DNA of 64,000 nucleotides, taken from assembly GCA_031253955.1 (NCBI GenBank), contig JAIRVJ010000010.1:1-64000 (forward strand), in the 5' to 3' direction. The stretch's first letter is position 1. Each line of letters opens with the position of its first letter. Positions 2,719 to 25,251 of the stretch are shown piece by piece. The stretch comes from Burkholderiaceae bacterium (GTDB taxonomy: Bacteria > Pseudomonadota > Gammaproteobacteria > Burkholderiales > Burkholderiaceae_C). Below the pieces are notes generated by a model. It saw only the letters and a list, made by a program, of their open reading frames with translations. It had not been told where the DNA came from and did no database searches. Position numbers and translations under genes: made by a program.

Positions 2719-2800
2719 ATGCACATGAAAAAGTCAGCAGCCATAAATCTCCTCGGCGGGACGGTCTCCGAGGCTGCTCGTGCAATCAAGAACATCACGC
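2719..2800 (+). pseudogene. Cro/YdaS-like N-terminal remnant
   Basis: MHMKKSAAINLLGGTVSEAARAIKNITPD... then the frame loses HTH character where terminase homology begins in another frame. Confidence 0.55.
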
Positions 2801-4001: not shown

Positions 4002-4018
4002 TTTCGTTCCCACTATGC
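4002..4018 (+). promoter_or_regulatory. 17-nt prophage motif, copy 1
   Basis: TTTCGTTCCCACTATGC, followed by GCCAAT; just after terminase stop. Confidence 0.8.
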
Positions 4019-4022
4019 GCCA

Positions 4023-4469
4023 ATGGCGCGCATGGCTGGCAAGTTGACCGTGGATTTCGAGCGCGTGGCGCGCTTTGCGCTGCCGCGCACGGGTGCGGCG
4101 TTGTGCATGGGAATGCGCGCAATCGGTTACGAGCGTGACGGCAAGGTCGTAGCCGGGTTTCTGTTTGATCTGTACGACGGCCAAAACATCTGGGCGCACG
4201 TGGCGCTGGAGTCGCCGCACGATCTGCCGCGCGCTTTGCTGGGCGCGATGCTGCGCTATATCTTCGTGGTGTGCGGTTGTCAGCGGGCCTGGGCGCGTGT
4301 ATGCGAGGACAACGTGCGCAGCGCCCGTTTCGTGGAGCGGCTTGGCGCGCATTGCGTGGCCCTCCTGCCGGGGGCTGACGGCGACAGCAACGTGCTGATT
4401 TACCGGCTGCTCAAGAGCGGATTGCGCGCCCCATACCGTGGTTTTTTGAGGAGCACCGCACATGGGTAA
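4023..4469 (+). CDS. GNAT-like acetyltransferase family phage protein
   Basis: FLFDLYDGQNIWAHVALESPHDLPRALLGAMLRYIFVVCGCQRAWARVCEDNVRSARFVERLGAH resembles the GNAT C-terminal region. Confidence 0.5.
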   Translation: MARMAGKLTVDFERVARFALPRTGAALCMGMRAIGYERDGKVVAGFLFDLYDGQNIWAHVALESPHDLPRALLGAMLRYIFVVCGCQRAWARVCEDNVRSARFVERLGAHCVALLPGADGDSNVLIYRLLKSGLRAPYRGFLRSTAHG

Positions 4470-5250
4470 AGACAATTCCGCGCCCGCGCCCGATCCGGCG
4501 CTGGTGGCCGCGCAGGTTCACAGCCTGGGGATTCAGGACGACGCGATCAGCCGCATGATGGCGATGAGCGAGGATCTGGCGCCGCTGCAACGCACGCAGT
4601 TGCAGCAGGCGATCGACCAGTCGGGCCAGCTTTGGACGCAGTCGCAGGAAGACCGGCAGTTCGCGCTGGGCCAGCGCGACAAGCTGGCAGGCATTCAGGA
4701 CAGGATTGTTCAGGATGCGCAAAGGTTCAACACCGAGGACGAAGCCAATAAGCTGGCGGCGCAGGCCACGGGGGATGTGAATCAGCAGTTTTCCAACGCC
4801 GCCGATCAGCAGACCAGGGCGTTGCAGCGCACGGGGGTCAACCCCAACGACGGGCGCTATGCCGCAATGGGCAGCCAGATGGCCGCCGCGCAAGGGCTGG
4901 CGCTGGCAGGCGCAGCGGGCAAGGCGCGCGATACGGCGCGGCAGGAAGGCTGGCAATTGACGGATCGCGCCAACAACGCGCTGGCCGGCTACCCGGCGAT
5001 GACGATGCAGGGGCAGACCGCTGGGCTGAACACGATGGGCGCGGGCATGGGGGCGGTCAATGCCGGGGTGGGCGGGATGCTTTCGCCATTTCAAGCGATT
5101 GGCTCGGCAGCCGGGCAGATGGGCAGCAACGCCACCAGCATGTACGGCACGCAGGCCAACGCCTACGCGCAAGGGCAGGCCGCCAATGGCGCGGCATGGG
5201 GCGGGCTGGGGTCGGCTGTCGGCGGGATTGGCATGGCGATAGCGATATGA
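4462..5250 (+). CDS. Phage structural/virion-associated protein
   Basis: Position in packaging/structural cluster; Ala/Gly/Gln-rich, Gly-rich C-terminus. Confidence 0.5.
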   Translation: MGKDNSAPAPDPALVAAQVHSLGIQDDAISRMMAMSEDLAPLQRTQLQQAIDQSGQLWTQSQEDRQFALGQRDKLAGIQDRIVQDAQRFNTEDEANKLAAQATGDVNQQFSNAADQQTRALQRTGVNPNDGRYAAMGSQMAAAQGLALAGAAGKARDTARQEGWQLTDRANNALAGYPAMTMQGQTAGLNTMGAGMGAVNAGVGGMLSPFQAIGSAAGQMGSNATSMYGTQANAYAQGQAANGAAWGGLGSAVGGIGMAIAI

Positions 5251-5993
5251 CGGACGGCGCGGCGGACCTTTTTGGGCGCCACGAGCGGGTGGCGTTTCAG
5301 CTATCGGGCGGACGCGATTCGGTGGCGGCGCTGCATGTGCTGCGCCGGTGTCTGCCGCGGATGACGGTGTATTTCACGGACAGCGGCGACGTGTGGCCGG
5401 AAACGCTGGTGGTGCTCCACATGCTGGAGCAGCGGTTCGGGTTCCGGGCCGTGCGTATTCAATCCGACGCACCAGGATGGCGTGCGCGGCATGGCGATCC
5501 CACGGACGTATTGCCGGTTTGCGCCACGCCGCTGGGCCAGATGGTGAGCGGCTGCCCCACGCGCCTGTGCACCCGCTACGAATGCTGCTGGAACAACCTG
5601 ATGCTGCCAATGCACCAGCGGATGCTGGCCGATGGCATCACCTGCATCGTGCGCGGTGTGCGGCACGGCGATTACCAAACCCACCCCGTGCGCAGCGGCC
5701 AGGAGGACGGCGGTATCCAGGCGTACTACCCGATCTGGGACTGGGACGAACCGCAGGTGGATGCCTATCTGGAGGAACACGCTCTGCCGCGCGCGCCGTG
5801 GTACGAGCAAGGGGCGCGCCACGGCAGCGACTGCCTGACTTGCACCGCCTGGTGGGACGACGGGCGGCAGGCTTACATGCGCCGCCATCACCCGCAGGCG
5901 TGGCAAGCGTTGCGCGTCAGGCTCTCTGCCATCAGGCAGGCGCTGGCTGGCGATCTGGCGCTGCTGGAAGAACAGTTGGCCTCAAGAGGTTGA
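5247..5993 (+). CDS. PAPS reductase-like PP-loop family phage protein
   Basis: SGGRDS PP-loop; Cys-rich CPTRLCTRYECCWNN and CLTC; ATGA overlap with upstream CDS. Confidence 0.75.
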   Translation: MTDGAADLFGRHERVAFQLSGGRDSVAALHVLRRCLPRMTVYFTDSGDVWPETLVVLHMLEQRFGFRAVRIQSDAPGWRARHGDPTDVLPVCATPLGQMVSGCPTRLCTRYECCWNNLMLPMHQRMLADGITCIVRGVRHGDYQTHPVRSGQEDGGIQAYYPIWDWDEPQVDAYLEEHALPRAPWYEQGARHGSDCLTCTAWWDDGRQAYMRRHHPQAWQALRVRLSAIRQALAGDLALLEEQLASRG

Positions 5994-6029
5994 GTGTTTT
6001 GTGTTGGCACGAGGAAAATACCTGTTTTA

Positions 6030-6109
6030 ATAGCTGACTTCCAGTGTTTTTACTGATTTCAAGACTCTTTCATATATATAAATCATTAAACACTTCGGCA
6101 GCTAGCTAT
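6030..6109. repeat. 80-bp AT-rich hairpin element, copy E1 (in prophage)
   Basis: ATAGCT...AGCTAT; inner TGATTT/AAATCA centred on 6069.5. Confidence 0.85.
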
Positions 6110-6159
6110 TAAAAGTCAAGCATAAGAAGTGGCGTTTTCCACGCCAAACGCTCAACGGT

Positions 6160-6176
6160 TTTCGTTCCCACTATGC
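6160..6176 (+). promoter_or_regulatory. 17-nt prophage motif, copy 2
   Basis: TTTCGTTCCCACTATGC, followed by CACGCTCT. Confidence 0.8.
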
Positions 6177-6190
6177 CACGCTCTGCGGTC

Positions 6191-6604
6191 ATGAGCGTGA
6201 CCATCCACACGGCCCAGGCGCACGCGGTGCGCGTGCTGGGCGACTTCACATTGATGCTGACCTGGGTCAACGGCGAGCGGGCGATTGTGCTGCTGCCCAC
6301 GCACCGGCGGCGCGCGCCGTGGTTCGTGGTGTGCGAATCGGCGGCGTGGCGCTACGCGGACGACCCGCGCTATCTGGCGCGGCAAAGCGTCAAAGCCTGT
6401 GAAGTGCTGGATATGCCGGGGCAGGCGGCGCGCATCGGCGGGCTGATTTTCGACCACCTGACGGATTTGCGCCGGATGCCACCCGAACCGCCGCCGGGCC
6501 AAGGGGTGCTGCTGGGCGAGGCCGTGGTGCGCGCGGGCGGGCAGATGGCCGGCGGCCACGAGGTGCGCTGCGAACCGCAATCCGGGATCACTTTTGGAGC
6601 TTGA
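6191..6604 (+). CDS. Conserved hypothetical phage protein
   Basis: Coding ORF between PAPS-like gene and portal. Confidence 0.5.
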   Translation: MSVTIHTAQAHAVRVLGDFTLMLTWVNGERAIVLLPTHRRRAPWFVVCESAAWRYADDPRYLARQSVKACEVLDMPGQAARIGGLIFDHLTDLRRMPPEPPPGQGVLLGEAVVRAGGQMAGGHEVRCEPQSGITFGA

Positions 6605-9039
6605 GGGCTGTGGCCGCCATCTTTTCTTGCGTCAACCACCAAGCGCCCGGCGACGGGCTGTTCCGTGACGCCGGCGGCGAGCCTGCCGATCCGCCGCAGC
6701 ACCCGATGGACGGCGACGCCATGCGCGCGCTGCACCGCCGGCTGCTGACGTGGCTGAACACCGAGCGCCAGTTGCAGGCGGCAAACCGGCTGGACATGGC
6801 CATTGACGCCGACATGTACGACAACCGCCAATGGATGCCCGAAGACGCCGAGGAAGTGCGCTCGCGCAACCAGGCGCCGTTGGTTTACAACGAAGTGGCA
6901 CCGATGGTGGACTGGCTGATCGGCACCGAGCGGCGCACGCGCATCGATTCTTCCGTGCTGCCGCGCACCGAGGACGACGTGGCGCTGGCGGACGTGAAGA
7001 CCAAGGTCATGAAATACATGGCCGACGTCAACCGCGCCGAGTACGTGCGCTCGACGGCGTTTGCCGAGGCCGTCAAGTGCGGCCTGAGCTGGATCGACGA
7101 CGGCATCCGCGACGATGCCAGCAAGGAGCCGGTGTACAAGCAGCACGAAAGCTGGCGTAATGTGCTGCACGACAGCCGGGCCATTCGCGCGCCCGATCTG
7201 TCGGGCTGCCGCTATCTGCTGCGCTGGCGCGATGTCGATCTGGACGTGGCGCTGGCGATGTTCCCGCAACGCGCGGCGCTGCTGGAGCGCGCCGCCAGCG
7301 ACTATTTGACGGTGGCCGTGCACGATGCCGAGCGCGCCGGCTGGGGCGGCCCCATGCCGCAAGAGGGCGGCGAATCGGCGCGGCTGCGCTACCTCGGTTC
7401 GTCGGGCATGTTCGAGGGCGTGGGCGATTTGCACAGCCGCCGCATCGTGCGCATTTACGAGTGCCAGTACCGCGATCCGGTGACGGTGCAGACGCTCGAA
7501 TCGGGGCCGCTGGCGGGCGCGGCGCTCACGCCGTTCGACCCGGTGGCGTTGCAGGCGGCGCAGCAAGATCAGGGCGCGGGCATCGTGGACAAAACCGCGC
7601 TGCGGATGCACGTGGCGGTGTTCGTGGAGGCCGGGATGCTGGCGGCCAGCCTGGCGCCGTGGCGGCACAACGATTTCAGCCTGACGCCGGTGTGGTGCTA
7701 CCGGCGCTCCAGCGACGGCATGCCCTACGGCGTGATCCGGCGCGTGCGCGACGTGCAGATGGATTTGAACAAGCGCGCGTCCAAGGCGTCGTTTCTGTAC
7801 AACACAAACCAGATCATCGCCGACGAAGACGCCACCGACGATTGGGAGAACCTGCGCGAAGAAGCCGCCGATCCGCACGGCATTCTTATCAAGAAAAAAG
7901 GCGCGGAACTGGCGCTGCGGCGCGACTCCGAGGGCGCGCAAGCCCAGTTGAACATGATGCAACTGGACGCCGCGGCGATCCAGAAAAGCGCGGGCGTGGC
8001 CGACGAGAACCTGGGCCGGCAAACCAACGCCGTCAGCGGCGAGGCGATCAAGGCGCGGCAGTTGCAGGGCAGCGTGGTCACCACCGAGTTGTTCGACAAC
8101 CTGCGCCTGTCCACGCGCGTGAGCGGGCAAAAAGAGTTATCGCTGATCGAGCAGTTCATGACGCAAGAGCGCGTGATCCGCCTGACGGGTAACCGGGGCC
8201 AGTTGCAGTGGGCCAGGATCAACCGGCCGCAAGTGCTGCCCGACGGCTCGGTGCGCTACCTGGACGACATCACCGCCAGCCAGGCCGATTTCGTGGTCAG
8301 TGAGCAGGACTATTCAGGCACGTTGCGGCAGGTCATGTTCGAGCAGCTAAGCAAACTGGCCGCAGGCCAGCCGCCGGCGCTGGCGCTGCGGCTGATGACG
8401 ATGGCCTTCAACTACTCCGACCTGCCCAATCACGAGGCCATCGCGCAGGAGTTTCGCGCCATCACCGGCGAGCCGGATCCCAACCAGCCGCCCACGGACG
8501 GGCAGCAGCAGGCGATGGCCGCGCAACAGGCCCAGCAGATGCAGGCCGTGCAGATGCAGGCGCAGCAGGGGCAACTGGCGCTGGCCGAAACGCAGGCCAA
8601 GGTGCGCGAGATCAACGCCCGCGCCGCCGAACTGGAAGCCAAAACCGCCGCCGCGCAATCGCAAGGCCAACTGGCGCAAGGTCAGGCCGCCGCCGTGCAG
8701 GACGCGGTGATGCAGGTCAGGCTGCAAGCCAGCGCCCAGATCGAACGCCTGCAAGCGCAACTGGCGCACACGCAAGGCGAGATGGCTGCCATGCGCGCGC
8801 GCGCCGACGACCGGGTGCAGGCCGCGCGCATCGCCGCCGCCGCCAGCGTGCGCGTGGCCGAGTTGCGGCTGGCCTCCACCGCGCAGATGGACGAGATTGG
8901 CCGGCGCATCGACGAAATCGCCGGGCGGGTGGATGCGCTCACGAACGTTGCGCCGCTGGCGCCAGAAATTTCCCCAGCCCCGCCCGCCGACGGCGCGGCG
9001 GTTCTTGATCCACTGCCACCACCCAAGGAGAGCGCATGA
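6601..9039 (+). CDS. Phage portal protein (P22-like)
   Basis: 812 aa; MYDNRQWMPEDAEEVRSRNQAPLVYNEVAPMVDWLIGTERR, ANQ-rich C-terminal coiled coil. Confidence 0.8.
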   Translation: MRAVAAIFSCVNHQAPGDGLFRDAGGEPADPPQHPMDGDAMRALHRRLLTWLNTERQLQAANRLDMAIDADMYDNRQWMPEDAEEVRSRNQAPLVYNEVAPMVDWLIGTERRTRIDSSVLPRTEDDVALADVKTKVMKYMADVNRAEYVRSTAFAEAVKCGLSWIDDGIRDDASKEPVYKQHESWRNVLHDSRAIRAPDLSGCRYLLRWRDVDLDVALAMFPQRAALLERAASDYLTVAVHDAERAGWGGPMPQEGGESARLRYLGSSGMFEGVGDLHSRRIVRIYECQYRDPVTVQTLESGPLAGAALTPFDPVALQAAQQDQGAGIVDKTALRMHVAVFVEAGMLAASLAPWRHNDFSLTPVWCYRRSSDGMPYGVIRRVRDVQMDLNKRASKASFLYNTNQIIADEDATDDWENLREEAADPHGILIKKKGAELALRRDSEGAQAQLNMMQLDAAAIQKSAGVADENLGRQTNAVSGEAIKARQLQGSVVTTELFDNLRLSTRVSGQKELSLIEQFMTQERVIRLTGNRGQLQWARINRPQVLPDGSVRYLDDITASQADFVVSEQDYSGTLRQVMFEQLSKLAAGQPPALALRLMTMAFNYSDLPNHEAIAQEFRAITGEPDPNQPPTDGQQQAMAAQQAQQMQAVQMQAQQGQLALAETQAKVREINARAAELEAKTAAAQSQGQLAQGQAAAVQDAVMQVRLQASAQIERLQAQLAHTQGEMAAMRARADDRVQAARIAAAASVRVAELRLASTAQMDEIGRRIDEIAGRVDALTNVAPLAPEISPAPPADGAAVLDPLPPPKESA

Positions 9040-10130
9040 GTGCCACCGAAAACCAACCCGTCACGCCCCAGACTGGCGCGCCGCCGCAAGAGGCCGCGCC
9101 GCATCTGGATTTGCTTACCGACGCCGAGCGCGCCGCGCTGGCGCTGGAATTGACCGCCGAGGACGGCGAAGGACAGCCCATCGAGGACGGCGAAGAAGAC
9201 GAAGACGGCGCGCAAGGCGAGACTGCCGCTGCCGAACCCGCGCCCAAACCCGCTCCCGTTCCCGCCGCCGCTGAAACCGCTGCCGCCACGGATGCGCCGG
9301 ATGGCAAGGAGGCCGCCGAAATAGCCGCTCCCGCCGCGCTGTCCGAACCCGCACCGGGCGATCCGGCCCCGGCGCAGCCCGCGCCCGTCCCGCGCGCTAC
9401 CGCCGCGCAGCTTCCCGCAGCGGCTTTCAGCTACGAGCTGCCTGCCGATTACCCGGAGCGGGTCAAGGCGCTGGAAGGCAAATTCCTCGATCTGGATCAG
9501 AAGCTGGAAGAAGGCGCGATCGACCAGCAGGACTACAACAAGCAGTTGCGCACGCTCACGCGCGAGCAGTCGGTGCTGGAGAACCTTTCCAGCCGCGCCG
9601 AGATCGCCCGCGACATGGCAAGTCAGGCGCAGGTGCAATTGGTGCGCAACGAGGGCGCGCTGTGGGGCCAGGCCGTGCAGACGCTGGTGTCAGAAATAAA
9701 AGGGCAGGAGGGCGCGCCCGATTACACCGCCGACGCCCGGCTGGCGCAGGCGCTGGGCAAGCAGGTGGAAACGCTGATGGTCGAGCGCGGGCTGGACCCC
9801 GCCCAGCCGGCGCAGGGCAAGCTCGATTTGCTGCGGCAGGCGCACCGCGTGCTGATGTTCATGAAAACCGGGAAGGCGCCCGGCCAGGCTGACGCCAAGC
9901 CGGATGCGCAAGCGGCGGCGCAGGCGATCAAGACAGCGGCGCAGGCGCGCACGCCCGATTTGTCCAGGGCGGCCAAGAGCATTGCCCAGCTTCCGGCAGC
10001 CGATAACGGCGCCGATGGCGGCGAGTTCGCCGACCTGGACAAGCTCAAGGGCGAGAAGCTGGAAACGGCGCTGGAAAAACTGCGGCGCGCCAGCCCGGCG
10101 GCCTACGAGCGTTACCTGTCCGAGGTGTGA
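9036..10130 (+). CDS. Scaffold-like acidic phage protein
   Basis: Acidic Glu/Ala-rich protein between portal and capsid. Confidence 0.55.
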   Translation: MSATENQPVTPQTGAPPQEAAPHLDLLTDAERAALALELTAEDGEGQPIEDGEEDEDGAQGETAAAEPAPKPAPVPAAAETAAATDAPDGKEAAEIAAPAALSEPAPGDPAPAQPAPVPRATAAQLPAAAFSYELPADYPERVKALEGKFLDLDQKLEEGAIDQQDYNKQLRTLTREQSVLENLSSRAEIARDMASQAQVQLVRNEGALWGQAVQTLVSEIKGQEGAPDYTADARLAQALGKQVETLMVERGLDPAQPAQGKLDLLRQAHRVLMFMKTGKAPGQADAKPDAQAAAQAIKTAAQARTPDLSRAAKSIAQLPAADNGADGGEFADLDKLKGEKLETALEKLRRASPAAYERYLSEV

Positions 10131-10137
10131 CGGCGGC

Positions 10138-10356
10138 ATGGCGCTGACGCTGGATTTGCTGCCGGGCGAGCTGCTGGAAATCGGCCATTGCGTCACGGTG
10201 CAGGTGGTCAGGAAAGCCGGGCGCATGGCGCGTCTTGAGGTGCGCGCGCCGCCCGGCATACCGATCGTGCGCAGGCCGCCGCAAACCGGGCGCGAGCCGC
10301 TTGCGGTTTTCGTTCCCACTATGCGCCAATCGGGTTGCAGTCAGGCGGGCAAGTAA
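10138..10356 (+). CDS. CsrA-like small phage protein
   Basis: LLPGELLEIGHCVTVQVVRKAGRMARLEVRAPPGIPIVR matches the CsrA pattern GExLxIGxxVTVxVxxxxGxxxRLxVxAPxxIxIxR. Confidence 0.55.
   Translation: MALTLDLLPGELLEIGHCVTVQVVRKAGRMARLEVRAPPGIPIVRRPPQTGREPLAVFVPTMRQSGCSQAGK
10309..10325 (+). promoter_or_regulatory. 17-nt prophage motif, copy 3 (upstream of capsid gene)
   Basis: TTTCGTTCCCACTATGC, followed by GCCAAT. Confidence 0.8.
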
Positions 10357-10431
10357 CCGGTCTGGCTTTCAAGGGAAGGTGAGCGCAGGAGTGCCGCCGA
10401 GGTCATTGCCATCCATGGAAAGGACACTCAC

Positions 10432-11565
10432 ATGGCACGCACCGTGATCGGGGTCAACGCCCCCAATGCAGTCAAGCGTTATAGCGCCGCTCTTTGGCTG
10501 GATGTCAGTCAGAAGGCGTATTGGGGCCAGAAGTTTTTCGGCAAGGGCGACAGGTCACAAATGCCGATTCAGATTCTCACGGATCTGGAAAGCGACGCTG
10601 GCGAGGAGGTCAAGTACGACCTGTTGATGGAATTGCGCATGGAGCCGATTGTCGGCGACGATGTGCTGGAAGGCAAGGAAGAACCCTTGCGCTTTTACAC
10701 CGATAGTGTGTACATCGACCAGATGCGCTGCGGCGTGAACACGGGCGGACGCATGACGCGCAAGCGCACGCTGCACGATCTGCGGCAGAAATCCAAACTC
10801 TCGCAGGGCAACTGGTGGGCGCGGTTCATGGACGAACTGTGCTTCATTTACATGTCCGGCGCGCGCGGCGTCAACGAGAACTTCATCCTCAACAAGAAGC
10901 TGGCGCAGATCATGGGCATCAACCCGATCTCGCAACCGGACGCCGAGCATCATTTCTTCGGCAAGGCCGCCACTGATTTCTCCAACCTGGCGCCCACCGA
11001 CACGATGAGCCTGTCGGCCATTGACCGCATGATTACCCGCGCGGGAACGCAGGGCGGCGGCGCGACCGATATTCCGGTGCTGCAACCCACGCGCTGGGAC
11101 GGCGGCGGCGATGAAAACTACGTGCTGGTAATGCACCCGTGGCAGGAGCAGGCGCTGCGCAACGAGGCGGGTGACAACACCTGGCTGAGTTGGAACAAGG
11201 CGCTGACCACGGCGGTGGGCAACAAGTCGCCCATCTTCTCCAACAGCCTGGGCATGTACCGCAATGTGGTGCTGCACAGCCACCGCAACGTGATCCGTTT
11301 CAACAACGCCGGGGCGACGCAAGACGTTCCCGCGGCGCGGGCTTTGTTCATGGGGGCGCAAGCCGGGGTGATTGCGTTTGGTTCGCCGGGCACCGGCAAT
11401 CGAATCCAGTGGTACGAGGACATGGACGACCGGGGCAATCAGGTCGTGATTACGTCCGGTTCCATCTTCGGCATCAAGAAAGCCACCTTCAACATCAATG
11501 GCAAGAAGCAGGACATGGGCGTGTTCGCCCTGGACACCGCCGCAGCCGAGCCGGTTGCGGTCTGA
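10432..11565 (+). CDS. Major capsid protein, N4-gp56 family
   Basis: MARTVIGVNAPNAVKRYSAALWLDVSQKAYWGQKFFG...; position after scaffold; SD GGAAAGGACACTCAC. Confidence 0.8.
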   Translation: MARTVIGVNAPNAVKRYSAALWLDVSQKAYWGQKFFGKGDRSQMPIQILTDLESDAGEEVKYDLLMELRMEPIVGDDVLEGKEEPLRFYTDSVYIDQMRCGVNTGGRMTRKRTLHDLRQKSKLSQGNWWARFMDELCFIYMSGARGVNENFILNKKLAQIMGINPISQPDAEHHFFGKAATDFSNLAPTDTMSLSAIDRMITRAGTQGGGATDIPVLQPTRWDGGGDENYVLVMHPWQEQALRNEAGDNTWLSWNKALTTAVGNKSPIFSNSLGMYRNVVLHSHRNVIRFNNAGATQDVPAARALFMGAQAGVIAFGSPGTGNRIQWYEDMDDRGNQVVITSGSIFGIKKATFNINGKKQDMGVFALDTAAAEPVAV

Positions 11566-11588
11566 CGGTACGACGAAAGGAAACCATT

Positions 11589-12041
11589 ATGTTTAAACAG
11601 CAAAACGACACCATCGCGGGCCGCGCGCCAGTTCCCACCGCCGATGACGTCGCCCTGGTGGCGCCGCGCTTCGTGCAGGAATGCGCGGCCAGCGACAGCG
11701 CCTCCGGCAATGTGGGCGTGATCGGCATCTTGCCGGCTGGTTGCACGCCGGCGCTGCCGCTGATCGTGGACAGCACGGGGCTGGGCGGCGCGGCGGCGCT
11801 GAGCATCGGCCTGCTCAACGCTGGCGGCACGGATTTGTCCGCCGACGCGAGCGATGGCGGCGGCCCGTGGGCCGCTGACGTGGCCGTGGGGGCGGCGGGC
11901 GCGGCGCAAATTGCGCCCACTGCCGCGCTGCTGGCGGTGCAAAAGACCGGCCATGACCGGCTGATCGCCGTCAAGTTCACCGCCGCCGGCAGTGCCGCCG
12001 GAACGCTGGGCCTGACGGTGGCCTACCGCAGTCCCGTTTGA
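11589..12041 (+). CDS. Capsid-associated hypothetical protein (decoration-like)
   Basis: Directly downstream of capsid gene; SD GAAAGGAAACC. Confidence 0.5.
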   Translation: MFKQQNDTIAGRAPVPTADDVALVAPRFVQECAASDSASGNVGVIGILPAGCTPALPLIVDSTGLGGAAALSIGLLNAGGTDLSADASDGGGPWAADVAVGAAGAAQIAPTAALLAVQKTGHDRLIAVKFTAAGSAAGTLGLTVAYRSPV

Positions 12042-12066
12042 CTCCATCCGGGTATCACCTGGTTGA

Positions 12067-12102
12067 CCCGGCTGCGAGTCTCCTGGCAGCCGGGCTTTTT
12101 TT
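12067..12102 (+). terminator. Rho-independent terminator after capsid genes
   Basis: CCCGGCTGC (12067-12075), 10-nt loop, GCAGCCGGG (12086-12094), C then T7. Confidence 0.9.
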
Positions 12103-12115
12103 CGAGGAAATCTCC

Positions 12116-12376
12116 ATGAAACTCATTTGCTCCATCAAGCCGCGCGCCGATGGCACGGTGCTGGTACAAGGCGACGGCAAAACCTGGACCTTCAACCCCA
12201 CGGGTGAGGGCGAAACCGCCGCCGACGTGCCCGATGCGCTGGCCGAAAAACTTCTGACCACCGGCAATTTCTACCCGGCGGGCAAGGCCGACGCCGCGCC
12301 AACGGCCAAGCCGCCTGCCGCCAGCAAAACCGCCTCCGCGCCAGCGGCCAAGCCGTCCGCCCACAAGGCCGCCTGA
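12116..12376 (+). CDS. Small hypothetical phage protein
   Basis: ORF immediately after terminator. Confidence 0.5.
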   Translation: MKLICSIKPRADGTVLVQGDGKTWTFNPTGEGETAADVPDALAEKLLTTGNFYPAGKADAAPTAKPPAASKTASAPAAKPSAHKAA

Positions 12377-12386
12377 CTGACCGTCC

Positions 12387-12992: not shown

Positions 12993-12994
12993 AC

Positions 12995-13624: not shown

Positions 13625-13644
13625 CCACCACAGAGGAAACCATC

Positions 13645-15130: not shown

Positions 15131-15131
15131 C

Positions 15132-16402: not shown

Positions 16403-16415
16403 GGGGAGAGCAGCC

Positions 16416-16670
16416 ATGAAATACGCACTCATCAACGGCGGCGCGGTGGTCAACGTGATCGAGGCAGAAGCGGGGTTTGCCGCCACGCTCACGGGCTATG
16501 ACGCCGTGATCGCATCCAACGAAGCGGGCATCGGCTGGACGTGGGATGGCGCCCAGTTTGCTCCACCGCCCGCGCCGCCACAAGCAGATCCGCCACCACC
16601 CACGCAGGAAGAGCTGTTGCGCCAATCGGCCAATGAGTTCCTGCTTGGAATCGTGGAGGGCATCAAATGA
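16416..16670 (+). CDS. Hypothetical phage protein
   Basis: MKYALINGGAVVNVIEAEAGFA... Confidence 0.55.
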   Translation: MKYALINGGAVVNVIEAEAGFAATLTGYDAVIASNEAGIGWTWDGAQFAPPPAPPQADPPPPTQEELLRQSANEFLLGIVEGIK

Positions 16671-16930
16671 ACGACCGGGAACTTGGCGCGCTATTTGCCG
16701 CCGCGATCCAGCTAATTATTAAGCGCGTGTCGCTTGACGACAGCGAGCGCGTTTCCATTGCCGAATTCCACGAGGCGTGGCAGCCCAAAGCGTATGGCGC
16801 TTCGGAATACGTGCGCCATGGCGAAACGGACGCAGGGCGCGCGCAACTGTGGATGTCCACCCGCAGCGTGGCGGCCAGCGCCCCCGCGCCCGATATGCCG
16901 GCCTCGCCGCAGAACTGGAGGAGGCTGTGA
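16667..16930 (+). CDS. Hypothetical phage protein
   Basis: ATGA overlap on both sides. Confidence 0.5.
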   Translation: MNDRELGALFAAAIQLIIKRVSLDDSERVSIAEFHEAWQPKAYGASEYVRHGETDAGRAQLWMSTRSVAASAPAPDMPASPQNWRRL

Positions 16931-17712
16931 TGATCTGCCTTTATTTGACGTTTGCCGCGCTGCTGCTGATAGCGGCGCTGGCGCTGTCGGGTATTTTGTG
17001 GGCGCAGGCCGCCGGGCGGGTGGATGTGGCCTTGCGCGTGAACGCGCTGGATATTTCCCAAGAGCACAAGCAGGCGGCTCTTGATTACTTCGAGCGCGTG
17101 AGCGGCCAGGTCTCGCTGTGGCGCACGCTGCGCGATCACCTCATCGCTCCGTTCGTGCTGTTCTTCGCGCTGCGCCGCCTGCCGTGGGAAGCCGATGATC
17201 TGCCCGACGCGCTGGCGTACTGGCGCAACAACGTCAGCATCAACGGCGACGGCTGGGGCTGGCGCGATGAAGCGGGCTTCTGGCATCAGTGCTCGCAAGA
17301 ACCCACGCCGCCAGGCATGACGGCGCTGCCCTACACCGATCCGGCTTACGGCGGCGATGCGTATTACGCGCCGGGGCATCACCCGCGCAGTTGGTACGCG
17401 CGCTGGGTTTGGCTGGCGTTGCGCAATGTCGCCAGCAAGCGGCCGCAAGACGCCGGGCCGCTAGTCGAGACTCGCCCCGTGCTGCTGGCCGGAGCGCCGC
17501 TGGACGATGCGCCCGGTTTCGCGCTGTACTGGAACGGCAAGGACGGCCAGGATGCCGCTTACCAGTGGCACGCGATGGACAACTGGGGGCCGCTGGTGAT
17601 GTACACGAACGTGGGCGCGAAACTGGGCGTGCCGTATGCGTGGCCGGAAACGATGCCATGCCGCGCCATGCTGATCGCCACCTGGCGGGCTTTCAAGGGG
17701 GGAAACTCATGA
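16930..17712 (+). CDS. Conserved phage membrane-anchored protein
   Basis: N-terminal TM; YWNGKDGQDAAYQWHAMDNWGPLVMYTN. Confidence 0.5.
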   Translation: MICLYLTFAALLLIAALALSGILWAQAAGRVDVALRVNALDISQEHKQAALDYFERVSGQVSLWRTLRDHLIAPFVLFFALRRLPWEADDLPDALAYWRNNVSINGDGWGWRDEAGFWHQCSQEPTPPGMTALPYTDPAYGGDAYYAPGHHPRSWYARWVWLALRNVASKRPQDAGPLVETRPVLLAGAPLDDAPGFALYWNGKDGQDAAYQWHAMDNWGPLVMYTNVGAKLGVPYAWPETMPCRAMLIATWRAFKGGNS

Positions 17713-18212
17713 ATCACCCGCGCCACGATCAACCCTACATAAGCTGGCAGCGCCGCAGCGCGTATGCCTTTGCCGCGTACATGCTGGCCGCCAGCATGTA
17801 CGACACGGCCAGCGCCGGGCTGTTTTCTCCGCACTCGCTGCGCTACGCCGCCGCCGCGCTGACGGGGATGCGCGAGTGGCTTTCGGGGGGCTACGCACTG
17901 TGCATGGCAGCCATGCTGCCGTTCATCGCGGCGCTGCGGCGCCCCTGCCCGCCGCCGCGCTGGACGGCGCGGCTGATGTGCGCGGCGTGCTTTGCGGCGG
18001 CGCTCATGTGGGTGGGCCAGACGTTTGCCGAACGCCATGTGGAGCTTGACCTGCTGCGCGCGCAGTACCTGCGCCAGGCGGTGCAGGCCATCGGCTTCAT
18101 GCTGCTGGTGGGCGCGCACGTGAACGCCCGCAAGTTCGCCGAGCGCGGGCTGGATCGGCGCAGCGCCGGCCCCCGCGAGTCCAACCGGGTGCCGCTGCAA
18201 TCGCTGGGATGA
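17709..18212 (+). CDS. Membrane protein in lysis region (holin-like)
   Basis: Multiple hydrophobic segments; upstream of endolysin. Confidence 0.4.
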   Translation: MNHPRHDQPYISWQRRSAYAFAAYMLAASMYDTASAGLFSPHSLRYAAAALTGMREWLSGGYALCMAAMLPFIAALRRPCPPPRWTARLMCAACFAAALMWVGQTFAERHVELDLLRAQYLRQAVQAIGFMLLVGAHVNARKFAERGLDRRSAGPRESNRVPLQSLG

Positions 18213-18787
18213 GCATGACCAAAACACTCACGGCGCACGGGCGCGCCCTCGTTTTATGCTCCTGGCTGGCCGCGCTCTCGTACAGCCTGCCGGCTGCCGC
18301 GCAGGGCATTGCCGCCGCCCGTCTGTCCGACGGGTTGAAGCAATACGACCTGGCGTTTGTCGGCTGGTGCATCCTCGTGGCCGTTATCGGCGGCTTTGGG
18401 CGCACGGTGCTCACGCTGCTTTCGCCCGACGTGGCGGTACTGAGCGTGCTGCGCGAGGCGTGGCGCGATCTGCTGATCGCCGCGCTGGCTGGCGCTGCCG
18501 CCGCCGTCATCCTGTACGCCATTCATTCGACGGGGGTCAACCTGCCGGTGCCAGTGGATGTGCTGATTTTGGCAGCCAGCGGCTGGGCGCGCATGGGCTT
18601 TTTCGTGTGGGCAGGCGATGGCGCGCGCATTCTGGCTGACCGGGGCGTGCAGTGGGCGGCTAACAAGTTCGGCGGCAGGCCGCCCTATGGCGAGCTTTAC
18701 CCCGGCCCACGCTGGGACAACACCCACATTCCCCAGCCCGCGCCGCCGTCGCCCTCGCGTGTCGATAACCCGGACCAGATGCCATGA
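18209..18787 (+). CDS. Membrane protein, holin candidate
   Basis: Signal/TM segments; immediately upstream of lysozyme. Confidence 0.45.
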   Translation: MSMTKTLTAHGRALVLCSWLAALSYSLPAAAQGIAAARLSDGLKQYDLAFVGWCILVAVIGGFGRTVLTLLSPDVAVLSVLREAWRDLLIAALAGAAAAVILYAIHSTGVNLPVPVDVLILAASGWARMGFFVWAGDGARILADRGVQWAANKFGGRPPYGELYPGPRWDNTHIPQPAPPSPSRVDNPDQMP

Positions 18788-19251
18788 AAGTGCTCTTGAC
18801 CTTGAGCCAGCAGGGGCTGGACCTCATCAAGCAATTCGAGGGCTTTCGCGCCGCACCATACCTGGATGCCGTGGGCATTCCCACCATCGGCTACGGCGCC
18901 ACCTACTACCCCGGCGGGGCGCGCGTGCGCATGACCGATCCGCCGATGACCGAAGCGCACGCCAGCCTCTTGCTCGAAAGCATGGTGCACCGTTTCGCCG
19001 ACGCCATCAACGGCTGCGTGCAGGCGCCGCTGACGCAGCCGCAGTTCGATGCGCTGGTGTGCTGGGCCTACAACGTCGGCATCGAGGCGGCGCGCCACTC
19101 CACACTGGTGCGCCTGCTCAACGAGGGCGACTGCGCCGCCGCCGCCGATCAGTTTCTGCGCTGGAACCGCGCCGGCGGGCGCGAACTGGCGGGCCTGACG
19201 CGCCGGCGCGAGGCCGAGCGGGGGCTGTTTTTGAGCGAGGCGGCGCCATGA
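18784..19251 (+). CDS. Endolysin, GH24 lysozyme
   Basis: LSQQGLDLIKQFEGFRAAPYLDAVGIPTIGYGAT ... CWAYNVG. Confidence 0.85.
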   Translation: MKVLLTLSQQGLDLIKQFEGFRAAPYLDAVGIPTIGYGATYYPGGARVRMTDPPMTEAHASLLLESMVHRFADAINGCVQAPLTQPQFDALVCWAYNVGIEAARHSTLVRLLNEGDCAAAADQFLRWNRAGGRELAGLTRRREAERGLFLSEAAP

Positions 19252-19904
19252 ACTTGCTGGGCTGGCTGGTTCCATCCTGGGCCATCGCCCTGGCCGCTGC
19301 CCTTGCGGGCGCGGCGCTGGGCGGCGGGGTGCAGCAGTTGCGCATCGCCAGCTTGCAAACCGAACACGCGCAGTACCGCGAGAAGCAGGCGCTGGCGCTG
19401 GCCGCCGCCGAGAAAGCCGCTCGCCTGGCCCAGGAGGATTTGCAAATCACCCGCAACCAGTTGACCGGCACGGTGGCCGGTATCGACCAGCGAATGACGA
19501 AAGCCAGAGAAGATGCTGCCAAGGAAACTGAAACTCGCCTGCGCGGCATGGCCGCTGGCGCTGTGCGCGTGCGCTACGTCGCCGCCTCCTGCCCCAACCC
19601 CGGTGGTGCTGTGCCCGCCGCTGCCGCTTCCCCCGGCCTGGCTGATGCAGCGGGAATCGACCTCGCTCCAGAGGCTGGACAAGATGTTCAGCTTCTCCGG
19701 CAGTCCCTTGCCGACGACGCCATCCAGATCGGCGGCTTCAAGCAATACGCCCGCGCCGTCGCCGACTACAACCGGGCGGTGACGGGCCGGACCGTCACGT
19801 CTGCGCCGGTTTTCCCTCTCCCCGGCCCTCTCCCGCAAGCGGGAGAGGGGGTCAACAGTCCTCCCGCCGGCGCGGGAGGAGGAGATGGACATGGCGGTCA
19901 TTGA
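19248..19904 (+). CDS. Inner-membrane spanin (Rz-like)
   Basis: N-terminal TM followed by coiled coil, downstream of lysozyme. Confidence 0.7.
   Translation: MNLLGWLVPSWAIALAAALAGAALGGGVQQLRIASLQTEHAQYREKQALALAAAEKAARLAQEDLQITRNQLTGTVAGIDQRMTKAREDAAKETETRLRGMAAGAVRVRYVAASCPNPGGAVPAAAASPGLADAAGIDLAPEAGQDVQLLRQSLADDAIQIGGFKQYARAVADYNRAVTGRTVTSAPVFPLPGPLPQAGEGVNSPPAGAGGGDGHGGH
19513..19782 (+). CDS. Embedded outer-membrane spanin (Rz1-like lipoprotein)
   Basis: Within Rz in another frame; signal peptide/lipobox-like LALCAC followed by Pro-rich SPPPAPTP. Confidence 0.65.
   Translation: MLPRKLKLACAAWPLALCACATSPPPAPTPVVLCPPLPLPPAWLMQRESTSLQRLDKMFSFSGSPLPTTPSRSAASSNTPAPSPTTTGR
19826..19849. repeat. 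REP-type palindrome CCCTCTCCCGC-AA-GCGGGAGAGGG inside spanin gene
   Basis: Perfect palindrome; same unit recurs at 40561, 42883, 43270, 43306 and 50270. Confidence 0.85.
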
Positions 19905-22560
19905 CATTCAGCAGTTCGTCGGTATCGCGCCGCGCGTGCCGCCGCGCGACATGGGGGCCGCTTGCGCGCAGGCGTGCGGCAACCTGCTGGCCACGGCGAT
20001 GGAATTCCGCCCGCTGCAAGAGGACGCGCCGGCGCGCTCCGATCCGGCGTTTGCCGCAGCGCGCACGCTGTACCGCCTCTCGCGCGATGCCCAGGGCAAC
20101 TATCTGGAGGACGATGCCGCCGGCTGGATCGTGGCGCCCGATGCGCGCAGTTACGCCAAGGGCGATTTGCACGACGACGCGACCGAGCGCACCTATTTCA
20201 CGTTCGATGACGGCACGCAAGCAGCGCGCGTGATTGACGCCACGGGCGAGAACCGGCTGCTGGGCGTGCCCGCGCCGGTATCGGTCGCGGTGACGGTGAA
20301 CCAGGGCCATTCGTTCACGCTGGACGATGCGCTCACGTGGGTGTCGGCCACGCTGATTCCGGCCATCGTGCAGGCGCTCAAAGCCTCCAGCACGGAGTAC
20401 CACATCTATCACGGCGCGCCGGTGGCCGGCGCCGATGCCATGTATTGCCTGACGTGGTGGGCCGAGGACGGCGGCTATGGCGTGGCCGGTGTGCCCGCCG
20501 ATCAGGCAGGGGCGCTGCGCGACCCCAGTCTGGCTGGGTTCCAGCAGGGCGGCCAGTGGGTGGTTCCGATCCTGTGTTTTCCGAAATGGGGCGTGGTGGA
20601 TACGGACAAGCTGACTGCCGCGTTGCAGGCCATCGAAGTGCCAAAGGCCGTGGGCGAGGACGGCGCGGGCGGCGGCGCCACTTCGTTCACCGGGGATCAG
20701 GCGCGCACGCTGGCGGGCAAGCTGGCGGCGCTGTTCGATCCTGGCGGCGCTTCTATTGCCAATTTGCGCCAGCAGATGACGGCAGCCGTCAAGGATTTCT
20801 GCGCGGCCATCAGCGCGGCGGCCTCCAGCGCGGGCGCAAGCGATCCGGCGCCGGAGGTTCAGCCGCCCCAAAAGCCCTCGGTGGGCGGCGTGTTCATGTA
20901 TATCCATCCCGACAGCGACTATGGCGAGGGGCTGACACTCACATGGAATAACGGCTACCGGGGCATGATCCAGCAGCAGTACCCGCTCGCGTCCAACCCG
21001 CTCATGCCGCAGTACCTCGCCGAGGGGGACAAAAACAACGCGCTTCACCAAAATACCTTGTGTTACGAATGGTGGCTGTATGAACGGCAACTCGATGAAT
21101 ACAACGCTGCGCAAAACGCCGGCGCCAAGCAAGACGGCCAGAACGCGCAGGAGGCGGCGGCGCTGGTGGCGCGCCTAGCGCAAGACAAGGCGCAAGCGGC
21201 CAGCGTGTACGACCAGATTTGCGGCGAGTACCAGCGCCGCGTGGCTGGCATCACCGATCTGGTGACGGGCCTCATCAACGGCCAGAGCCTGCTGGGCGAG
21301 GGCGGCCTGATCGCCGTGGACGCCGACCGGATCATCGACACGCGCTTTTACATCGCCACCTACGTGACCGACTGGGGCTGGGAGAGCGCGCCTTCGCCCA
21401 TCAGCGCCATGCTGGAAGTCAGCCAGTACGACACGGTGACGGTGCAGGTGCCCAAGCCGCCAGAGGATCGGCAGGTTCTCAAGTGGCGCATCTACCGCAG
21501 CAACGTGGGCACGCAGGATGCGGCCTACCAGTTTGCTGCGGATGCGCTGGCGGCCGACGGGCTGTCGCTCACCGACCAGGTCAAGGGCCAGGCGCTGGGC
21601 GAGGTCTGCCCGACCTTCGGTTGGGCCGAGCCGCCCTATCGCATGGACAACGCCAGCAGCCAGCAGGTCAAGCCGCCCAAGGGGGACGACCCGCACCTGC
21701 GCGGCCTGGTGGCGATGCCCAACGGGATTTTGGCCGGGTTCATCGACAACTACGTGGCCTTTTGCGACCCGTACCACCCGTATGCCTGGCCCATCGAATA
21801 CCAGATCACCACCGAGGCGCCCATCGTCGGGCTGGGGGTGTTCGGCCAATCGCTTTTTGTGGGCACGCGCGGGCATCCTTATGTCATTAGCGGCGCCGAT
21901 TCGGCCAGCATGAGCGCCGTCAAGCTGCCGCAACTGCTGCCGTGCGTGGCCGCGCGCAGCATCGCCGGGGTGGGCGAGGGGGTGATCTATGCCAGCCATG
22001 ACGGGCTGGTGCTGGTCTCCACCGCCGGGGCGCAACTGCTCACCGACGCCTACTACGCGCGCGAGGACTGGCTGGCCCTTGCGCCGCAGACGATCCGCGC
22101 CATCGAGTACGAGGGGGTGTACTACTTCTGGGCGGGCGATGGCGTTTGCCGGGCGCTGGACTTTAGGGCCAAAAAGCTGGTGACGGTAGATTTGCCGCAC
22201 GCCACGGCGCTGCGGCGCGACGAGTTGACGGACGCGCTGTTTGCGGTGCGCGGCCCGCACGTGGTGCGCTGCTTTGCCCAGGGCCGGCGCACCGGGCGCT
22301 GGAAAAGCGGCGTGCAGACGTTCCAGAAACAGGCTCCGCTAGCGTGGGGCGTGGTGCTGGGCGATCAATCCCAGGCGCAGCCGGCCACCCTGCGCTGGTG
22401 GGGCGATGGCAAGCTGCTCGTTGAAAAGCAGGTCACGGGCATCGCGCCGTTTCGCCTGCCGGCGGGCCGCCCGCTGGAGCACGAGGTGGAGATTGAGTCC
22501 GCTGCGCGCATCACGCGCGTGCAACTGGCCAGCAGCACGGCGGAATTGCAGGGCATCTGA
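19885..22560 (+). CDS. Large phage tail protein
   Basis: 891 aa ORF in tail cluster after lysis genes. Confidence 0.6.
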   Translation: MDMAVIDIQQFVGIAPRVPPRDMGAACAQACGNLLATAMEFRPLQEDAPARSDPAFAAARTLYRLSRDAQGNYLEDDAAGWIVAPDARSYAKGDLHDDATERTYFTFDDGTQAARVIDATGENRLLGVPAPVSVAVTVNQGHSFTLDDALTWVSATLIPAIVQALKASSTEYHIYHGAPVAGADAMYCLTWWAEDGGYGVAGVPADQAGALRDPSLAGFQQGGQWVVPILCFPKWGVVDTDKLTAALQAIEVPKAVGEDGAGGGATSFTGDQARTLAGKLAALFDPGGASIANLRQQMTAAVKDFCAAISAAASSAGASDPAPEVQPPQKPSVGGVFMYIHPDSDYGEGLTLTWNNGYRGMIQQQYPLASNPLMPQYLAEGDKNNALHQNTLCYEWWLYERQLDEYNAAQNAGAKQDGQNAQEAAALVARLAQDKAQAASVYDQICGEYQRRVAGITDLVTGLINGQSLLGEGGLIAVDADRIIDTRFYIATYVTDWGWESAPSPISAMLEVSQYDTVTVQVPKPPEDRQVLKWRIYRSNVGTQDAAYQFAADALAADGLSLTDQVKGQALGEVCPTFGWAEPPYRMDNASSQQVKPPKGDDPHLRGLVAMPNGILAGFIDNYVAFCDPYHPYAWPIEYQITTEAPIVGLGVFGQSLFVGTRGHPYVISGADSASMSAVKLPQLLPCVAARSIAGVGEGVIYASHDGLVLVSTAGAQLLTDAYYAREDWLALAPQTIRAIEYEGVYYFWAGDGVCRALDFRAKKLVTVDLPHATALRRDELTDALFAVRGPHVVRCFAQGRRTGRWKSGVQTFQKQAPLAWGVVLGDQSQAQPATLRWWGDGKLLVEKQVTGIAPFRLPAGRPLEHEVEIESAARITRVQLASSTAELQGI

Positions 22561-22562
22561 AC

Positions 22563-24518
22563 ATGGCTGGCGGCACACTCACGCACATCACCGACCCGCG
22601 CGCGCGGCGCTCCGGGCGCGACACCGGCATCGCCCGGCTGCCCGCCATTGCCACGCCCAACACCGGCAACGCTCATACGGACGCGATTTTGGCGGCCATC
22701 AAGGAGCAGCTGGAAGTGCGCAACGGGGCGCGCGGCAACGATGCCGAACGGGTGGTCACGCAGCGCGAACTCAAGGATTTGCTGGATACGACCGGGCAAC
22801 TGTCCAGCCAGGTGGACGCGCTGTCCACGGCCATTGCGGGCACGGCGCAGCCGCTCACGCCCGCCGAGGCGCTGGCGCGGTTTCAGGATTTGATCCGGCG
22901 CTTGCCGCTGTACCAGGACCTGGTCAAGTCCCTCAACGACCCCAGCCGCTTTGATGCCATGCGTGCCGAGGTGCGCGAGCAACTGCTGCGCAGCCTGACG
23001 CTGGAGGCGCAAAAGCTGGGCGCGAGCATTTTGCAAACGCAGAAACAAGTTCAGGATTCCAACCTGTCGCTGGCGCTGCAAATCAGCCAGTTGACCGCCG
23101 CCGTGCAAAACGCCGCCGCCGGCGTGCGCCAGACGCAGTTTGCCACCGGCGAATTGGGGCGCGCGCAGGCGGGCCTGGTCAATCAGTTGCAAGCTTCATT
23201 GGGCAGCTACTACCAGGACGGCGGCCAAGGGCGCGCCAGCCTGGAGGAGGTATTGCTGGCCACCGCCGATCTGCTGGAGGGCTTGTCGGGCCAGTACACC
23301 ATGAAGGTGCAGGCCGGCGGGGCGCTGGCCGGCATTGGCCTGTCGGCCACCGAGAAGGACGGCGCGCCCGATTCGGCCTTCATCGTCATGGCCGACAAGT
23401 TCGCCATCGTCGCGCCCGATTACGCGGGCGGGCTGACCAACCTGCCGGCGGCCAGCAGCATCCCGTTCGGGGTGGATGCGCACGGCATTTACATGAATAG
23501 CAACGTGTACCTGTCGGGCACGATGCGCATTCAGGGCGGAGACAAGACGCTGATCGACGGACTGCGCGGCTCGCTGCAACTGAACGCGGGCAGCGGCGCG
23601 TGGAGCGACGTGGCGGCCAGCCAGAAAGTCTGGACGGCGCTGGGTAACCCCGGAGCGCCCGTGGGCACGGCGCACCTGGTGATCGGCGACATGGTGACCC
23701 TCGGCAACGTCACGCGCTACTGGAATGGTAGCGCGTGGTCTAACCCAGGCATGGTAATTACCGGAGATTTGCTGGTAGACGGCACGGTGGCTGCGCCCAA
23801 GATCAACACCAATGGGCTGACGATCCGGGATGCCAACGGCAATGTGATTTTGAACGCCGGGGCCGGGCTGAATTTGCAAAACAGGCTGCCGGGCCTGGGG
23901 GCGCTGGCCACGCAGAGCGCGGCAGTGATCGGCTCAACGGTCAAGTTTCCGGACGGCACGGTGATGAACACCGCCGATTTTGTCAACCGGCTGCAAAAGA
24001 TCGATCCCGGCACCATCGGCACGTTCATTTCGACGGCTGCCATCGGCGCAGCCTACATCGGCAACGCAGCCATCGGCACCGCCCATATCCAGAACGCGGC
24101 GGTGGACACGCTGCGCATCGCGGGGGGGTCGGTGACGTCGGTGGCGGTATCGTCCGGCGCGCCTAACCTGACAATCGTTCAGGGCAGCCCTGCCGTGGTG
24201 GGCAGCATACCGTGGACTTACGTTGCCGGCTCCACCGGATGTCTGCTTTCCGCGTTCGTTTCCTGTAACTGCGACACGGGAAATGTATCGGCGATCCAGA
24301 TGAACATCCGCATGTCCGCACCGGGCGGTTACACCACGGTTGGCTCGTCGGTTATTTCCCTGGATGGTTCGTGGGCGCGTGTCAGCGTCGGTTTTGGTTT
24401 CGCCAACCCCACTGGCAACGTCACTTTCGATCTGCAATTGGTCGTTCCGGGATCGGGAGGTGGTGGCCCGGCGCATATCGGCCAGTTCTATCTGATGGCG
24501 ATGGGGGCCAAGCGATGA
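22563..24518 (+). CDS. Phage tail fiber/host specificity protein (DUF1983-like region)
   Basis: ADKFAIVAPDYAGG...FGVDAHGIYMNSNVYLSGTMRI and repeated AAIGAAYIGNAAIGTAHIQNAAVDTLRIA. Confidence 0.65.
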   Translation: MAGGTLTHITDPRARRSGRDTGIARLPAIATPNTGNAHTDAILAAIKEQLEVRNGARGNDAERVVTQRELKDLLDTTGQLSSQVDALSTAIAGTAQPLTPAEALARFQDLIRRLPLYQDLVKSLNDPSRFDAMRAEVREQLLRSLTLEAQKLGASILQTQKQVQDSNLSLALQISQLTAAVQNAAAGVRQTQFATGELGRAQAGLVNQLQASLGSYYQDGGQGRASLEEVLLATADLLEGLSGQYTMKVQAGGALAGIGLSATEKDGAPDSAFIVMADKFAIVAPDYAGGLTNLPAASSIPFGVDAHGIYMNSNVYLSGTMRIQGGDKTLIDGLRGSLQLNAGSGAWSDVAASQKVWTALGNPGAPVGTAHLVIGDMVTLGNVTRYWNGSAWSNPGMVITGDLLVDGTVAAPKINTNGLTIRDANGNVILNAGAGLNLQNRLPGLGALATQSAAVIGSTVKFPDGTVMNTADFVNRLQKIDPGTIGTFISTAAIGAAYIGNAAIGTAHIQNAAVDTLRIAGGSVTSVAVSSGAPNLTIVQGSPAVVGSIPWTYVAGSTGCLLSAFVSCNCDTGNVSAIQMNIRMSAPGGYTTVGSSVISLDGSWARVSVGFGFANPTGNVTFDLQLVVPGSGGGGPAHIGQFYLMAMGAKR

Positions 24519-24952
24519 AGCACTACGTTTTGGTGAAAGAAACCGGGGAAGTGGTTTCCTCTTGCGTTTCGTCCGAAGGACTGCCGCCGCCGGAGATGGT
24601 TCCGCCCGGCTTGTGCGCGGTGGAAGTGGCCGGGATGGTCGATACCGCCAGCGTGCGCTTTGACGGGCAATCGGTGACGCCGCTGCCGCCACGCCCCAGC
24701 GAACATCACCGCTTCGACCACGCTGCGCTGAAGTGGAAGCTGGACATGGGCCGTGCCATAAACGCCATGCGCGAGCGGCGCAACCGCTTGCTGGCCGCCA
24801 GCGATCCGGTGGTGTTGCGCGCTGTCGAAACCGGCCAGGGCGTGCCGCAAGAGTGGACACGCTACCGCCAAGCGCTGCGCGATCTGCCCGCCGCCGTGAC
24901 GGATGAAGCGTCGCTGCTGACCGCGCCGTGGCCCGCCGCGCCTACAGCTTGA
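24515..24952 (+). CDS. Tail fiber assembly/chaperone-like protein
   Basis: AINAMRERRNRLLAASDPVVLRAVETGQGVPQEWTRYRQALRDLP. Confidence 0.65.
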   Translation: MKHYVLVKETGEVVSSCVSSEGLPPPEMVPPGLCAVEVAGMVDTASVRFDGQSVTPLPPRPSEHHRFDHAALKWKLDMGRAINAMRERRNRLLAASDPVVLRAVETGQGVPQEWTRYRQALRDLPAAVTDEASLLTAPWPAAPTA

Positions 24953-25169
24953 CGATGGCGGCGATCACGCCCACGGCCACCACCAGCATGGCGCCGAGCT
25001 TGATGGTCATGCGCAGTTCAAGTTCCCGCAGGTCGGACTTGGTAACCAGATTGGCCGAGTCCGTGGAATCGCGCACGGCGGCGGCCATCGCCTCGGCTTG
25101 CCGCGCGTTCACGCCAGCGGCTTCCAGCGTCTTGACGAATTTGAGCGTATCGAAGGTGACGGCGTTCAT
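24942..25169 (-). CDS. DUF1640 (CCDC90-like) protein
   Basis: MNAVTFDTLKFVKTLEAAGVNARQAEAMAAAVRDST...TIKLGAMLVVAVGVIAAIVKL. Confidence 0.8.
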   Translation of the reverse strand: MNAVTFDTLKFVKTLEAAGVNARQAEAMAAAVRDSTDSANLVTKSDLRELELRMTIKLGAMLVVAVGVIAAIVKL

Positions 25170-25199
25170 GCGCGGCAGTTTAGCAAAACTTCGCCGGTT

Positions 25200-25216
25200 T
25201 TTCGTTCCCACTATGC
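25200..25216 (+). promoter_or_regulatory. 17-nt prophage motif, copy 4
   Basis: TTTCGTTCCCACTATGC, followed by CACCCTCT. Confidence 0.8.
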
Positions 25217-25251
25217 CACCCTCTCGCATCTTCTGATGTGCGAGGTGCGGT

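Follow-up and report, generated by a model that had tools for sequence, protein, structure and literature searches.

What are the four identical 17-nt sequences that stand before genes on one strand of a Burkholderiaceae prophage, and what reads them? A preliminary description of this locus, a 64,000-nt stretch of DNA analysed as a whole (hereafter the window), had pointed out their likeness to a T7-family promoter core, with a regulator binding site or a processing site as equally open readings. The window carries a defective Bcep22-like prophage, with the capsid and portal of that family, a CsrA-like gene adjoining the capsid gene and a giant polyvalent protein; acetyltransferase and PAPS reductase genes belong to its modules as well. 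Its major capsid protein (phrog_334; 10432..11565, + strand) is 47% identical to that of Erwinia phage Pavtok and 46% identical to that of BcepIL02. The early region had been suspected to be deleted, and this is borne out by a scar (2719..4000, + strand) at which a Cro-like start is joined directly to a terminase large subunit cut down to 406 aa (median in relatives, 529). A second Bcep22-like prophage in the same assembly is represented by its early region on the 15.2-kb contig C140 (G000; L192), which encodes exonuclease, repressor, replication and winged-helix proteins and reaches into a terminase gene with 82% DNA identity to that of the window. At the other prophage end an integrase gene (37482-38692) adjoins tRNA-Asn, a probable attachment site, and a KilA-N protein gene lies at 35868-36692.

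We found the 17-mer TTTCGTTCCCACTATGC exactly four times on the + strand in a scan of the whole window (4002, 6160, 10308 and 25200), as previously described except that the third copy starts one base earlier than the 10309 given before. No further match with up to three mismatches occurs elsewhere in the window, shuffled windows yielded a mean of 0.03 such matches and never four, and the rest of the 2.6-Mb genome contains just two, each with two mismatches; the claim that chance is negligible is thus borne out, and so are the two downstream variants (GCCAAT at copies 1 and 3, CAC(G/C)CTCT at copies 2 and 4) and the placement of all four copies at gene junctions. Comparison with relatives sets the conserved unit at 20 nt (p0-p19), beginning 3 nt inside the 17-mer (CGTTCCCACTATGC.. 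to a final NNN-T). Copy 1 (4005..4024, + strand; CGTTCCCACTATGCGCCAAT) precedes a phage acetyltransferase gene (4032..4469, + strand; phrog_4470) with the ATG at +27 from p0, and copy 2 (6163..6182, + strand; CGTTCCCACTATGCCACGCT) precedes a portal-proximal gene (6191..6604, + strand; phrog_10057, the gene preceding the portal gene, its family occurring in 14/14 phages compared) with the ATG at +28. Copy 3 (10311..10330, + strand; CGTTCCCACTATGCGCCAAT) lies 121 nt before the capsid ATG and overlaps the 3′ end of the CsrA-like gene (10138..10356, + strand; PF02599, E=2e-5, its 24.8 bits slightly below the cut-off of 27). Copy 4 (25203..25222, + strand; CGTTCCCACTATGCCACCCT) precedes, with the ATG at +49 and a GAGG Shine-Dalgarno-like leader, a gene for a 565-aa protein (25252..26949, + strand), which is followed by that for the 2932-aa giant protein (domains LPD3, LPD23 and MuF_C).

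Whether related phages carry the motif had been proposed as a check on the promoter reading, and it is clearly present in dozens of them. In the closest relative (G001, capsid 92% identical) a copy stands at each of the four places, with the spelling CGTTCC(G/C)ACTATG; the offset is unchanged at copy 2 (element 13124, ATG at 28) and similar at copy 4 (element 31560, ATG at 48). A Lampropedia prophage (G002) has five copies spelled CGTTCCAATCAT; over 21 kb its capsid region shows full identity to Lampropedia aestuarii, and it matches a prophage of L. aestuarii YIM MLB12 (NZ_SSWX01000015) with five copies. A further phage (G003) has five spelled GGTTCCAAGCATG. At the capsid gene, both G001 and G003 carry C at p15. 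An exact 16-mer scan of viral contigs returned one true relative, the matches in L007 and L009 having the look of chance. Searched with a profile, viral contigs yielded 80 relatives. In dozens of these, and in most of those inspected, the element lies ~79-121 nt before the capsid ATG, and the longer contigs mostly have two to eight copies in one orientation, each contig with a spelling of its own (GTGCCAAGGATGGCA, GTGGCAAGCGTGGCA, GTACCAAGCCTGCCA, GCGCCATGCGTGGCA, GTGCCTAGTATGGCA and more). Acetyltransferase, portal-proximal, capsid and giant virion protein genes lie directly downstream of copies across phages. Over 1.16 Mb, matches to a single consensus numbered 219 on the gene strand and 58 on the opposite strand, many of the latter being the palindromic partner of a + match, against 26 on both strands for a reversed control.

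Some relatives depart from this pattern. An extra copy precedes a gene for a ~65-aa protein between portal and scaffold (G449 22357, G461 46192, G451 24330, G454 33151, G450 24988 and G446 38853); the family occurs in eight genomes and is not csrA. In the sub-group L075/L121/L136 the element reads CGCTCCAAGCC(C/G/T)G.CA-NNN-T, and p11 is often C or G rather than T, so that the TG part is not universal. A very divergent form, CGACTAACCTC(G/A)CACCAT, occurs in L083/G468 in two same-strand copies, one of them before the capsid gene. Inspection by eye of gene upstreams in the motif-free BcepIL02, Itty13, Pavtok and POI1126 revealed no shared element of this kind, and de novo repeat finding in whole genomes of motif-free phages was swamped by GC-rich coding repeats. 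Sigma70-like -10 hexamers (TAGAAT, TATAGAAT and GATAAT) were seen by eye at similar places in motif-free relatives (upstreams L033-L036), before capsid, acetyltransferase or giant-protein genes.

We aligned 75 copies from 14 phages, assembled by seeded matches and by eye, a set that leans for this reason towards good gene-start matches. The element is CGTGCCAAGCATGGCA-NNN-T, also written CGT(G/T/A)CCAAGCATGGCA-NNN-T; its edges at p0 and p19 are sharp, and the 20 nt on either side are random. Positions p5 (C) and p11 (T, 75/75) are constant and p12 (G, 74/75), p15 (A, 66/75) and p19 (T, 70/75) nearly so, with p16-p18 and p20-p40 random. A fixed T following three free bases suggests a protein-DNA contact. 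The right half, TG-N-(C)A-NNN-T, aligns with an extended -10 element of sigma-70 promoters, p11/p12 supplying its TG, p15 its -11 A and p19 its -7 T, the exceptions being window copies 1 and 3, which have C at p15, and L075/L121/L136. A -12 T, a TATAAT-like hexamer and a -35 signal are all absent (p14, the predicted -12, is C in 61/75), which leaves the -10 reading to rest on few positions.

Other positions vary in concert. Positions p3, p4, p6, p8-p10, p13 and p14 are the most variable between phages and uniform within a phage. Within one phage, the copies of different genes show a mean of 1.37/16 differences; for a given gene, the copies of different phages show 4.77/16. Shuffling labels among genomes within gene classes gave 4.55/16 mismatches (minimum 3.91 in 1000 shuffles), against 1.38/16 observed. 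By orientation there were 71 matches on the gene strand, three on the opposite strand and none in shuffles. Each phage appears to have something that reads all of its copies.

Distances to the start codon fall into two main groups. As raw counts, 24 copies have the ATG 26-29 nt downstream of p0, with a Shine-Dalgarno-like tetramer in 0/24, and 33 copies have it 44-57 nt downstream of p0, with such a tetramer in 25/33; the remaining offsets are 23-24 nt (two copies) and 30-43 nt (12 copies). A transcription start near p26 would make the first group leaderless and give the second a normal short leader. In the window, the 26-29 group comprises copies 1 and 2, which are predicted to be leaderless, the 44-57 group comprises copy 4, and copy 3 would give a long capsid leader.

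As to what does the reading, a phage sigma factor is not borne out by a search for sigma-70 region 2 (PF04542), with matches in 0/14 phage records and in 10 of 14 control genomes. Clustering of open reading frames in 14 genomes, which could miss very small or very divergent families, returned one non-structural family in 12 of the 13 motif genomes other than the window, and a profile detected it in the thirteenth (G456). This protein (~110 aa; consensus NPRPPGVIRxGSAT...QIVxATGRSxKxVxWALLYL...RNxRYLRYR) matched no Pfam family above cut-off. Its predicted structure is a winged helix (pLDDT >90 over the core), and its best PDB matches are the MarR-type AdcR/ZitR (E about 3e-4, TM about 0.5). By profile search it is present in 17/18 motif-bearing records, three of which overlap the 13 genomes; the one record with no match is G463 (47 kb, incomplete). 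The profile found no match in Pavtok, BcepIL02, POI1126 or T7, nor in L019, L029 and L112 (where no element was found) or L031, and the match in Itty13 has E = 0.01. L083/G468 carries the protein (E 3.6e-17) despite its very divergent element. In relatives the gene lies in the early region, which is missing from the window; in the window's own genome it is on contig C140.

We then ran the comparison forwards, picking contigs by the winged-helix protein alone with one protein as query. Three were clearly new: G471 carries seven same-strand copies and G472 about five, and no element was found in L197, a 15-kb fragment without a capsid gene. Recognition helices of the form SKGE(I/V)DWA pair with C at p10 in 9/9 phages (G446 also has C), a pairing that common ancestry may explain. 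Partial Mantel tests, which are lenient under shared ancestry, gave 0.35 (p = 0.0004) for motif against winged-helix protein given capsid distance and 0.40 for motif against capsid given the winged-helix protein; since the motif tracks capsid distance too, the first value is supportive only. Co-occurrence, fold and correlation point to the protein as the likely reader of the upstream half and the best candidate for an activator.

Together, these comparisons lead us to regard a phage-specific, activator-dependent class of promoters, read with the host RNA polymerase, as the best explanation and a probable one. In each element an extended -10-like half, for use by the host RNA polymerase and its main sigma factor, would adjoin an 11-nt upstream half with phage-specific letters. 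The MarR-like winged-helix protein would read this upstream half and recruit the polymerase, and the late (virion) modules would thereby be turned on at several points. Transcription would begin about 26 nt past p0, giving leaderless mRNAs for the acetyltransferase and, in several phages, for the terminase small subunit or the portal-proximal gene, mRNAs with a short Shine-Dalgarno leader for other genes, and a capsid mRNA with a long leader containing a conserved GGA hairpin. With the prophage's own early region gone, the copies in the window are probably silent, unless the related protein encoded on C140 acts on them. One point that counts against promoters is that the element at the capsid locus sits inside the coding end of csrA.

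The copies could instead be operators of a phage repressor or activator, placed over or beside ordinary promoters, in which case TG, A and T would all belong to the protein site and imply no -10. We consider this unlikely, even though a winged-helix gene co-occurs with the element and most spellings hold an imperfect inverted repeat, TGCCA-AGCA-TGGCA, of a kind typical of dimeric winged-helix proteins: several phages (GTGGCAAGCATGGCA, GTACCAAGCCTGCCA) no longer have the symmetry of the repeat but retain the orientation, and the fixed ATG distances, with no Shine-Dalgarno at 26-29 nt, fit a transcription start there.

That the element acts in intergenic mRNA, as a processing, antitermination or translational operator (of phage CsrA, for example), is improbable. 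All copies are on the sense strand in gaps that are probably transcribed, the spelling AAGGATGG has GGA in a possible loop, and csrA adjoins the capsid copy; against this, no hairpin is conserved across spellings, GGA is absent from most of them, and CsrA-like genes also occur in the motif-free BcepIL02 and Pavtok, so that CsrA does not track the motif and was rejected as its reader. A hairpin suggested by L021/L022 was likewise dropped, being not repeated elsewhere in those contigs. A coding explanation (FVPTMRQ) fits only copy 3 in csrA, and was set aside as the letters are not codon-like and the flanks are random.

The T7-like promoters of the preliminary description, with a single-subunit phage RNA polymerase lost along with the early region, now look highly improbable. 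They would account for one spelling per phage, for the many copies ahead of genes on one strand and for the CACTAT core of the window copies. The check proposed earlier for a phage polymerase in relatives, however, goes against the polymerase version: the single-subunit RNA polymerase family PF00940 was found in 0/23 related phage records, many of them 50-70 kb, while T7 as positive control scored 1e-109; in place of CACTATA the relatives have AAGCAT, AATCAT, AAGGAT or AAGCCT, and no GGG start is conserved in the random stretch beyond p19. The polymerase and the T7 kinship are thus not supported, and the more general suggestion of a promoter is supported, on comparative grounds, by orthologous positions, uniformity within genomes and fixed start-codon spacing. 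Least credible of all is a recombination sequence at module boundaries or a small mobile repeat homogenised by gene conversion, for which speak the copies at module borders and the different placement of the acetyltransferase gene with its copy in the window and in G002, since a copied repeat would bring its flanks, whereas here three random bases precede a fixed T and start-codon spacing is constrained.

Leaderless bacterial promoters of the TANNNT type have a -11 A, a -7 T and the start codon at +1; the putative promoters described here would share all three and differ in being joined to an 11-nt phage-specific upstream half. In organization they may also resemble T4 middle promoters, which combine a MotA box with a -10 and depend on sigma appropriation by MotA/AsiA (PMC2988021, PMC6755090). 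Both would pair a phage DNA-binding protein with host RNA polymerase, and a constant -10-like half with an upstream half read by the phage protein. The upstream half abuts the -10 half here, whereas it lies near -30 in T4, and here the candidate reader is a MarR-like winged helix, the -12 T is absent, and the genes served would be virion genes with many predicted leaderless starts. With promoters of the T7 family (Autographiviridae) they have in common many same-strand copies and one spelling per phage that differs between phages, and differ in length, in constant positions and in having no single-subunit RNA polymerase gene. The phages themselves resemble Bcep22-like podoviruses (Lessievirus: BcepIL02, JC1) in their capsid, portal, CsrA-like, acetyltransferase, PAPS reductase and giant protein modules (PMC9144972), of which BcepIL02 has neither the winged-helix gene nor such an element.

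In its text, the paper on JC1 says nothing about promoters (PMC9144972), and among open papers, a scope outside which the founding Bcep22 paper falls, we found none that reports these spellings in a phage context; as far as we have checked, late-gene switch-on in Bcep22-like phages is undescribed. The proposed mechanism answers this precisely: it names a candidate activator and predicts where the transcript of each gene would begin. The chances seem to us evenly balanced that it extends to a large, mostly uncultured Bcep22-like group, in which virion genes would be controlled by a minimal -10 half and a MarR-read 11-nt half, element and protein would have co-diversified, and many transcripts would start on the start codon. 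If the mechanism is right, nature would offer dozens of promoters, differently spelled and each matched with its activator, in which to follow the joint change of a DNA-binding protein and its sites. Leaderless late mRNAs in such number would also be unusual for proteobacterial phages.

A separate observation concerns the predicted capsid leader. A hairpin at 10383..10394 (+ strand; GCGCAGGAGTGC), with GGA in its loop, recurs as GCGC-A(G)GA-GTGC nearly invariant in 21/21 aligned phages (the window with L010-L134 and L033-L035), the loop usually being GGA; its pairs do not vary and so provide no covariation support. The hairpin directly follows the phage CsrA-like gene, and CsrA may have a target here in the capsid mRNA.
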